From an uncultured Collinsella sp. (GTDB lineage: Bacteria; Actinomycetota; Coriobacteriia; Coriobacteriales; Coriobacteriaceae), in contig CAKTWE010000030.1 in NCBI GenBank assembly GCA_934630385.1, positions 1-20,592 of the forward strand: 20,592 bases of DNA. The letters are read 5' to 3'. Of this stretch, positions 18,447 to 19,966 are shown in pieces. A model generated the notes under the pieces. The model saw only the letters and a program-made list of their open reading frames with translations, did not search any database and was not told where the DNA came from. Position numbers and translations under genes: made by a program. The stretch's first letter is position 1. The number at the start of each line of letters is the position of its first letter.

Positions 18447-18489
18447 CTACGCAGCGTAGGTTGTCGAGCCTGGCCTTCAAATGGATACT
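18447..18489 (+). promoter_or_regulatory. Candidate promoter and operator of the XRE-desulfoferrodoxin gene
   Basis: TTGTCG (18461-18466) and GATACT (18484-18489) are 17 bases apart, a moderate match to the consensus. The dyad CTACGCAGCGTAG (18447-18459) abuts the -35 box and is a plausible operator for autoregulation. The placement favours the ATG at 18538 over an in-frame ATG at 18481, which would lie between the two promoter boxes. Confidence 0.4.
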
Positions 18490-18537: not shown

Positions 18538-19158
18538 ATGAACCAGACACGGCAAACCAATGCCTCCCATACTTTTTTGGCAGCGCATGCCATCAAGCAG
18601 CTGCGCGAAGAGCGCGGCCTCACCCAGCGCGCCCTGGCGGAAAGCCTTGGCGTGACCGATAAAGCCGTCAGCAAGTGGGAATCCGGCCGCGGCCTTCCCG
18701 ACATTTCCCTCGTTGAGCCTTTGGCCCAGAGACTCGGCATAAGCGTGGCCGAGCTTTTGGCTGGTGACATTCGGGCCAACGCCAACCGTGCAGGCAATAT
18801 GCTCAAAGGCGTCTTTTACGTTTGCCCTATCTGCGGAAACGTTGTGCACGCGCTCGGAGAAGGCAGCTTTAGCTGCTGTGGCTCCACGATGTTTCCCCAG
18901 GAGGCCGAAGAGCCGGACGCGGACCACGCCTTTTCCATCGAGCGCATCGAGGACGATTGGTACGTCACGCTCGATCATCCCATGACCAAGGATCACTACA
19001 TTAGCTTTGTGGCATATGCGACTATGGACGGCATCTGCTTTAAGAAGCTCTATCCAGAGCAATCGGTGCAGCCGCGCTTCCATATTACCGGGCGCGGCAG
19101 GATATATCTTTACTGCAACCAACACGGACTCTTTACGTCGCTGACGCCTCGCAAATAA
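18538..19158 (+). CDS. XRE-family HTH regulator fused to a desulfoferrodoxin-like domain
   Basis: 206 residues from the ATG at 18538; the ribosome site is weak for this start and for 18481. Residues 15-75 are an XRE helix-turn-helix (IKQLREERGLTQRALAESLG, then VSKWESGRGLPDISLVEPLA). Residues 93-206 align with desulfoferrodoxin. The desulforedoxin-like iron site is YVCPICGNVV ... SCCGSTM (Cys96, 99, 113, 114). The superoxide reductase site is His130, His147 and His153 (DHPMTKDHYI), then Cys193 and His196 (YCNQHGLF). All nine ligands are present. The enzyme's Glu-Lys pair just before the first histidine is Ala128-Asp129 here. I infer a redox- or superoxide-responsive DNA-binding regulator rather than an enzyme. 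No target gene is adjacent except perhaps itself. Confidence 0.88.
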   Translation: MNQTRQTNASHTFLAAHAIKQLREERGLTQRALAESLGVTDKAVSKWESGRGLPDISLVEPLAQRLGISVAELLAGDIRANANRAGNMLKGVFYVCPICGNVVHALGEGSFSCCGSTMFPQEAEEPDADHAFSIERIEDDWYVTLDHPMTKDHYISFVAYATMDGICFKKLYPEQSVQPRFHITGRGRIYLYCNQHGLFTSLTPRK

Positions 19159-19204
19159 CGGCTGTCTATCCGCCCTCCTCATGCGTTCCCAGGGGACCCA
19201 AAAT

Positions 19205-19268
19205 GAGCGTGGATAATCTCCCGGTTTTGGCCTGTGTGCGGGCTCAAAGTGGGAGATTATCCACGCTC
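19205..19268. repeat. 18-bp perfect inverted repeat
   Basis: GAGCGTGGATAATCTCCC (19205-19222) is repeated in inverse at 19251-19268 around a 28-base loop. On the minus strand it is followed by ATTTTGG, so it might end transcription of the SIS gene. The arm end is shared with the 23-base repeat. It fills most of the 19159-19301 gap, which has no gene. Confidence 0.7.
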
Positions 19269-19276
19269 GTTAGTTA

Positions 19277-19301: not shown

Positions 19302-19913
19302 CTACTTAAGCCCCGGAAGGCGGGTGTAGGGGAACGAGCGCTCTAGGAACTCGGAGCAGCGGGCGTAATCTTTGGCGAAGTAGCTGCTGTAGAGCGAATC
19401 GAGCACGTATTGCACGGCGATGTGGCTCGCAAACTGCGTGATGCGATGCGTCATGCTCTCGTGGTCACTCACCGTAAGGTAGGCGGCAAAGCCAGGGTGA
19501 ATGCGCGCGCAATGAGGCGTGCCGATGACGACGACCGGGACATGCCGACTGCTGAGGATCGGCAAGATATCCTTGAGGTTGGGGGCAAGGCCGCTGTAGG
19601 AGATGGCGATTGCCACATGGTCGGGGCCCGAGGCGAGCGCCGTGCGTACCTGGGCCTCGATATTGTCGCGGCACGTCGCGCTTTTACCGGCGGAGAGCAG
19701 ACGATCGCGGAACATTCCTGCTGGATAGAGATTGTGCGAGCCCGTGTAGATGTCGACCTGTCGGGCGTTCGCGATGAGCTTGGCGGCGTGGTCAAGCTGC
19801 GTGGGGTCGAGCGGCTCCTGTGTCTCGGCCAGCGTGGTCTGGTAGAGCCCCTCCATGCGCTCCATAACCTGCGCAGGCGTGGAAGCGGCATCGAAGGGAA
19901 AGTTGATATCCAT
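19302..19913 (-). CDS. SIS-domain protein, RpiR-like but without the HTH domain
   Basis: 203 residues from the ATG at 19913, preceded by GTGGGAG at good spacing; a TTG at 19943 would add ten residues. The SIS sugar-phosphate fold is clear: ARQVDIYTGSHNLYPAGMF, then AISYSGLAPNLKDILPILSS, VPVVVIGTP and MTHRITQFASHIAVQYVLDS. RpiR/MurR regulators run to about 280 residues with an N-terminal helix-turn-helix of about 75, followed by a linker like MDINFPFDAASTPAQVMERM. Here the protein begins at that linker. The preceding DNA encodes no helix-turn-helix in any frame I could read, and a GGGGAC hairpin repeat sits at the junction (19938-19966). It may be a decayed regulator, or a stand-alone SIS protein that still binds ligand or partners. 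Confidence 0.8.
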   Translation of the reverse strand: MDINFPFDAASTPAQVMERMEGLYQTTLAETQEPLDPTQLDHAAKLIANARQVDIYTGSHNLYPAGMFRDRLLSAGKSATCRDNIEAQVRTALASGPDHVAIAISYSGLAPNLKDILPILSSRHVPVVVIGTPHCARIHPGFAAYLTVSDHESMTHRITQFASHIAVQYVLDSLYSSYFAKDYARCSEFLERSFPYTRLPGLK

Positions 19914-19937
19914 GCGAACTCCCACACTCGCCAAACC

Positions 19938-19966
19938 TGCCAAAAGGGGACAGGTTTATTTTGGCA
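19938..19966. repeat. GGGGAC-loop hairpin at the 5' end of the SIS gene
   Basis: TGCCAAAA pairs with TTTTGGCA around the loop GGGGACAGGTTTA. The GGGGACAGG loop is shared with the elements at 10440 and 17095. It lies where the missing DNA-binding domain of the SIS protein would be expected to end. Confidence 0.7.

Follow-up and report, generated by a model that had tools for sequence, protein, structure and literature searches.

The window analysed here is a stretch of 20,592 nucleotides from an uncultured Collinsella sp., a gut bacterium, and it carries on the forward strand a gene of the HTH-Dx-SOR type (18538..19158) encoding 206 amino acids plus stop, as judged from translation, Pfam, NCBIfam and AlphaFold2. 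The protein begins with an XRE helix-turn-helix (HTH) of the Cro/cI type (residues 19-73; 18592..18756, + strand), which Pfam recognises as HTH_3 with 58.5 bits at a cut-off of 23. It continues with a desulforedoxin-like FeS4 centre (residues 93-118; 18814..18891, +), placed by Pfam and alignment, whose Cys96, Cys99, Cys113 and Cys114 form the CxxC-x(n)-CC set. The last part is a superoxide-reductase-type domain (residues 122-202; 18901..19143, +) with the Fe(His4Cys) ligands H130, H147, H153, C193 and H196, as found by Pfam, phmmer, fold match and alignment. The Desulfoferrodox model scores 22.4 bits (cut-off 22.2), and the order HTH, Dx, SOR is that of the HTH-Dx-SOR class, with the N-terminal FeS4 (Dx) domain at 20.1 bits just under its Pfam cut-off of 23. 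The desulfoferrodoxin model TIGR00320 covers residues 93-199 with 47.3 bits, far under its equivalog cut-off of 146.9. An AlphaFold2 model of the 206-residue protein has a mean pLDDT of 89.1. A longer reading frame starting at 18481 was disfavoured, and the start at 18538 preferred, because 18481 falls within the predicted promoter, whose -10 hexamer occupies 18484-18489.

A sequence-only reading of this DNA had described an XRE domain joined to both iron sites of a desulfoferrodoxin, with the catalytic Glu-Lys pair before H130 replaced by Ala128-Asp129. Both descriptions hold, as every ligand it named is found where it had placed it and the exchange is seen in the translation (codons 18919..18924, +). 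In the alignment with 2Fe desulfoferrodoxins that it proposed as a check, residues 93-199 match solved structures by phmmer (1vzg, E 7e-9), the Cys and His ligands line up with those of the 1vzg type, and Ala-Asp lies opposite the residues directly preceding the first His. The same domain has a lysine at position 151 (codon 18988..18990, +) within the motif HPMxKxH. The nearest genome searched encodes a protein identical to that of the window. Database labels, where given, read 'helix-turn-helix domain-containing protein', and one record is labelled 'XRE-family HTH domain/desulfoferrodoxin (superoxide reductase-lik...)'.

The surroundings of the gene have features of their own. Downstream, at 19202-19271, lies an inverted repeat with 31-nt arms that are 84% complementary and an 8-nt loop, and 19203-19299 matches another locus (L038:173-269) at 94%, so the repeat appears to be a hairpin element scattered among intergenic regions. 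On the reverse strand, 19302-19943 holds a SIS/RpiR-like reading frame, with matches under the curated cut-offs, of 213 aa vs 295 aa at the corresponding place in the near-identical locus L036. Similarity to L036 stops at about 19912 and restarts some 230 bases further along L036, so this frame appears to be without its 5' part.

The fusion class itself is already known. SORGOdb (2011) defined an HTH-Dx-SOR class of 19 proteins by architecture (PMC3116461), and the window protein shares with it an N-terminal HTH, a desulforedoxin domain and a superoxide-reductase domain in the same order. A search for the same fusion elsewhere, suggested by the sequence-only reading, found it widely. Altogether 4404 proteins match the window protein at E <= 1e-5, a number that is not a count of fusions because some match through the HTH alone; the best 120 of these 4404 were compared. 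At least 32 of 197 Coriobacteriia genomes have a match covering both the HTH and the iron domain, a lower bound as at most 15 candidates were scored per genome. Searches of genome contigs gave 535 confirmed relatives, not necessarily all fusions, and the best 80 of the 535 were analysed. They include Collinsella, Enorma, Gordonibacter, Faecalispora, Evtepia, Ruminiclostridium and Treponema, with many metagenome bins. The 80 loci span Coriobacteriia, Clostridia and three Spirochaetota records (L106, L112, L113), which come from uncultured organisms or metagenome bins and may be mis-binned. Protein alignments use 79 of the 80 loci, leaving out L114. The window and L036/L037 are near-identical; a reduced set therefore holds 54 regions whose proteins are less than 80% identical.

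The metal ligands are conserved almost throughout the family. Among the 79 fusions the four Cys, H130, H147, H153 and C193 are invariant and H196 is present in 78. The query and its 120 best matches have the four Cys, H147 and H153 in 121/121, H130 in 120/121, and C193 and H196 in 116/121, and this near-invariance disfavours a chance resemblance to desulfoferrodoxin. The EKH triplet of the enzymes occurs in 0/79 relatives, 0/120 best database matches and 0/120 matches of a side branch described below, vs 21/21 stand-alone reductases taken from fusion-bearing genomes. Lys stands directly before the first His in one of 80 rows, as Asp-Lys, and Glu-Lys in none. The HxMxKxH motif with Lys151 is found in 79/79 fusions, 119/120 best matches and 114/120 side-branch matches, vs 0/21 stand-alone enzymes; Arg takes column 151 in five of the 120 side-branch proteins and at locus L220. 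Furthermore, every one of the 79 fusions has Glu174 and Arg180, positions that are not fixed in the stand-alone enzymes, while Pro173 is common to both. Judging from these alignments, the active-site lysine sits in the first loop in the enzymes and in the second in the fusions. A lysine in the second loop is not foreign to the fold, since the D. baarsii enzyme has HPMEEKH, with its Lys one place later than Lys151 in the phmmer alignment.

These observations bear on the further claim of the sequence-only reading, that the domain has become a sensor of superoxide, oxygen or NO controlling DNA binding. The disappearance of Glu-Lys from 79 relatives with near-invariant metal ligands speaks for it. 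On the other side, loss of Glu-Lys alone does not imply lost catalysis, and true reductases without Glu-Lys before the first His exist as exceptions. That reading had itself named, as evidence against it, an aligned lysine elsewhere in the active site together with normal reductase activity; the first half of this is found, because Lys151 lies in the second active-site loop of 79/79 fusions vs 0/21 enzymes. Lys151 might restore catalysis, and the leading alternative is that the protein is an autoregulated superoxide reductase, a trigger enzyme in which Lys151 stands in for Glu-Lys and the HTH sets only its own level. The lysine pattern suits such an enzyme, as does the retention of all five iron ligands throughout the main family, with H196 missing from a single member, and the Glu-less reductase of Nanoarchaeum equitans reportedly reduces superoxide. 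We nevertheless hold this account rather unlikely, as the same genomes also have a stand-alone EKH reductase.

A stand-alone reductase was counted in all 32 fusion-bearing Coriobacteriia genomes, which also agrees with the sensor reading. The call was made by place or search in 27 genomes and from E-values only in five (G022, G047, G067, G143, G153; two matches each, best E near 1e-16), and sequences from 21 of the 32 were compared. This co-occurrence is weak evidence rather than linkage, because PF01880 matches occur in 179 of 197 Coriobacteriia genomes and the reductase is thus general in the class. The complete four-Cys set is present in 79/79 fusions vs 10/21 stand-alone reductases, so the FeS4 site is more tightly constrained in the fusion in these genomes. 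The 11 of 21 without it (L004, L128-L136 and L138) are Collinsella-group enzymes that keep EKH and His4Cys. The same difference in the Cys set would suit a sensor of metal availability, in which Cys4 and His4Cys bind iron (or zinc) reversibly and report metal supply instead of oxidants. However, fold and ligands match a redox-active iron protein, and we regard this explanation as quite improbable.

Gene neighbourhoods were surveyed at the 80 loci, as the sequence-only reading had advised, and the survey brought out no conserved partner. The commonest neighbour is an ABC-ATPase-like protein (19/80 loci, in varying places). A P-type ATPase lies near the gene in 5/80 loci and no metal-transport gene is consistently linked across the 80, which weakens the metal-supply explanation, and the lack of any recurrent electron-donor-like neighbour among the same loci tells against a working reductase. 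Since no neighbour is conserved, no partner names the signal.

The region in front of the gene holds a palindrome, CTACG-CAG-CGTAG (18447..18459, +), followed by G at 18460, and a related site with at most two mismatches in 12 is found in 79/80 upstream regions. One base past the palindrome lies a predicted -35 hexamer, TTGTCG (18461..18466, +), placed by position rather than by consensus, as the -35 hexamer was defined as the six bases following CGTAGG. A predicted -10 hexamer, GATACT (18484..18489, +), follows after a 17-base spacer. In the palindrome scan, CTACG-N3-CGTAG occurs in 41/80 regions and any such word in at most two in 10 shuffles. Over the 400 bases upstream of each gene, the closest match to the 12 fixed positions differs at 0, 1, 2 or 3 of them in 40, 25, 14 and 1 of the 80 regions, respectively, and in 21, 23, 9 and 1 of the reduced 54. 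Of 708 upstream regions of other reading frames at the same loci, none has 0 or 1 mismatch and 11 have two, so that a conserved palindromic operator stands at the gene's own promoter in 79/80 vs 11/708 in the control. The same 80 regions served both to discover the motif and to count it first, and the genome-wide scans below are the independent checks.

A -10-like hexamer at 17-base spacing is found in 70/80 regions when ties are broken towards 17; without the tie-break, 17 is among the best spacers in 69/80, and it wins outright in 50 of the 58 regions that have one best spacer. Agreement among the 80 regions is 78-100% at the operator bases and at most 46% at the bases separating -35 and -10. 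Assuming a transcription start 7 bases past the -10 box, the operator is centred at about -43, a position that would be compatible both with occlusion of the -35 box and with contact activation. A weak -35 box, TGGCGC, occurs in 9/80 regions, and such boxes lean towards activation. Two exact sites lie elsewhere in the 80 loci. The one in L050 is the opposite strand of its own operator; the other is a second operator of L041 (L041:3362, +), which stands 1.9 kb ahead of the family gene, is followed by no evident gene and may be left over from a promoter.

The conserved operator argues for real DNA binding, which supports the part of the sequence-only reading that gave the HTH a regulatory role. 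Additionally, the operator can be tied to the HTH through one unusual locus (L167, genome G166), where it precedes a gene whose product resembles the family in its N-terminal HTH (54% over residues 12-79). The recognition helix is kept there and a membrane-like tail replaces the iron domain, making this hybrid, on the sequence evidence, a natural domain swap that links operator to HTH. Furthermore, at the position following CGT the 80 main-family sites have A (71), G (7) or T (2), vs T (6) or A (1) in seven sites of the GGxMK side branch, five of them from close relatives; L225, L227 and L228 have C, C and T there. Variation of the right half-site with linker type is suggestive only. These data matter for the idea that an enzyme has retained the HTH as a structural relic. 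HppE, an HTH joined to a cupin epoxidase, acts as an enzyme, and in the structure comparison HppE structures match the HTH part of the window protein. Nevertheless, a relic would hardly be expected with an operator conserved at its own promoter in Coriobacteriia, Clostridia and Spirochaetota records, or with that operator before a family-like HTH on another tail, and we give this idea very little credence.

Genome-wide scans show how rarely the operator occurs elsewhere. The strict pattern is present in 23 of 197 Coriobacteriia genomes, as a single site each. Nineteen of these sites precede an intact family gene; the remaining four are the hybrid (L167), a truncated family gene (L169), a site without a family gene behind it that was taken as a remnant (L168) and a site within an unrelated frame (L148). 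No strict site was found in 13 fusion-bearing genomes; 12 of them carry variants (CTCCACG...CGTAGG, CTACTGAGCATAGG, CTACGGAGCGTTCATTGC, CAACGAAGCGTTTGTTGC), and genome G169 has none in the 153 bases examined. In another 29 genomes that carry a family gene, a lone strict site was found in 20; it lies at that gene in 18 cases and at other reading frames in two (G214, G224). With one mismatch permitted, 28 of these 29 have a site, single in 24, and 27 of the 30 loci are at the family gene; the three others are a DUF4180 gene (L200), a DUF2992 gene (L210) and a short frame without Pfam match (L183).

The family of G212 was sampled with 300 genomes, a few of them shared with the other samples; 40 have a site at one mismatch, single in 39, and 26 of the 30 sites examined out of 41 precede a family gene. 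The others are two XRE genes with a membrane-like tail (L241, L243), a chloramphenicol-acetyltransferase-like gene (L238) and a site with nothing readable behind it (L247); L220, L225, L227, L228, L235, L236, L239 and L248 were assigned to the family by reading the sequences. Among 99 G075-family genomes, eight carry the subtype CTACGNAGCGTTYRTTGC, once each; the site lies at a family gene in seven (L251 again assigned by reading the sequence) and before a short frame without Pfam match in one (L257). A wide Clostridia sample of 391 genomes gave one match, at a family gene (L219). The non-family operator genes L238, L200, L210, L183 and L257 hint at a possible stress or xenobiotic theme, seen in few cases.

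A wider regulon was also considered and rejected, since two-mismatch sites are fewer than in the reversed control in 17 of 18 fusion-bearing genomes, G188 being the only one with more, although strict patterns would miss weaker operators. Three one-mismatch sites of G143 were dismissed because they fall in unrelated reading frames, as were the second sites of G211, within a coding frame, and of G224 (C79), which a long opposite-strand frame covers. A strict operator mostly at its own gene is also what an autoregulated reductase would show.

Further evidence comes from the side branch with a GG-x-M-K linker. One member used as query gave 1256 matches at E <= 1e-5. Among the best 120 of these, Cys96 and Cys99 are present in 120, Cys113 and Cys114 in 119, H147 in 119, H153 and C193 in 120, and H196 in 118. 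Column 130, normally the first His, holds Asp, Glu, Asn or Gln in 118 of the best 120 of 1256 and a gap in one, in an alignment that may be off by one there, the adjacent residue often being Arg. The G075-family members with this linker (L030-L035) retain the first His, so its loss is confined to part of the branch. L225, L227 and L239 are without it and retain HTH and operator. That part of this branch lost the first ligand yet kept the lysine, with three members keeping the operator, tells against a trigger enzyme; members with an incomplete His set would be easier to accommodate for a metal sensor.

Taken together, the domains of the protein and the conserved operator in front of its gene make it most likely that it responds to redox stress and regulates its own synthesis. 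That it is a self-controlling one-component, iron-based redox regulator with the desulfoferrodoxin part as signal input is a conclusion we consider probable, with moderate confidence. In such a circuit, the XRE domain would bind CTACG-N3-CGTAG next to its own -35 box as a dimer, a step suggested by the observed conservation, position and HTH linkage. The desulfoferrodoxin part would hold FeS4 and Fe(His4Cys) centres, as its conserved ligands and fold indicate. Superoxide, oxygen, NO or a change of redox state would alter the dimer and hence DNA binding, which may either repress or activate the promoter. The main output would be the amount of the protein itself, since a genome usually has just one strict operator, plus rare accessory targets.

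Some points do weigh against such a regulator. A regulator seldom has so few other strict targets, a pattern that an autoregulated enzyme could show as well, and zinc could occupy the Cys and His sites. With almost no other operator carriers, either pure self-dosage or a few weaker targets can be considered, and under pure self-dosage the protein's own activity would matter, as the trigger-enzyme account requires. Sensing is favoured over catalysis because a separate enzyme is present, Glu-Lys is lost, and members without the first His keep the circuit.

The 2Fe superoxide reductases (D. baarsii 1vzg/2ji1, D. desulfuricans 1dfx) differ from the window protein, which is without Glu-Lys before the first His, has a lysine two residues ahead of the third His and carries an HTH in front. 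Tyr172, together with Glu174 and Arg180, is conserved in the fusions and not in the enzymes compared. A study of the D. baarsii reductase is said to assign roles to Glu47 and Lys48. Unlike the XRE repressors P22 c2 and SinR, the fusion has an iron-protein fold as its C-terminal domain. HppE likewise joins an HTH to a non-haem iron domain, but that domain is unrelated, and the fusion gene has a conserved operator. To our knowledge, no characterised regulator uses a superoxide-reductase domain as its sensor. Literature searches returned, among the titles and abstract openings of the matches listed, no paper on a tested function of HTH-Dx-SOR proteins. TrtA of Treponema denticola, described as an XRE regulator with an oxygen phenotype, was ruled out as the same fusion, having 104 aa and, according to its authors, no similarity beyond residue 80 (PMC12724145). 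Relative to the main text of the SORGOdb article (PMC3116461), the operator, the exchange of Glu-Lys for Lys151 and the members without the first His are added here, and the hybrid is likewise new.

We tentatively suggest, at somewhat below even confidence, a large multi-phylum family in which a superoxide-reductase domain turned into an iron sensor through the move of a lysine between loops, controls essentially its own promoter, and in a side branch lost the first iron ligand and kept the circuit. The lysine exchange offers a natural experiment on the role of Glu-Lys in the enzyme. Moreover, the operator makes a sequence class of 2011 a testable circuit, with a short DNA, one protein and two coloured iron centres.
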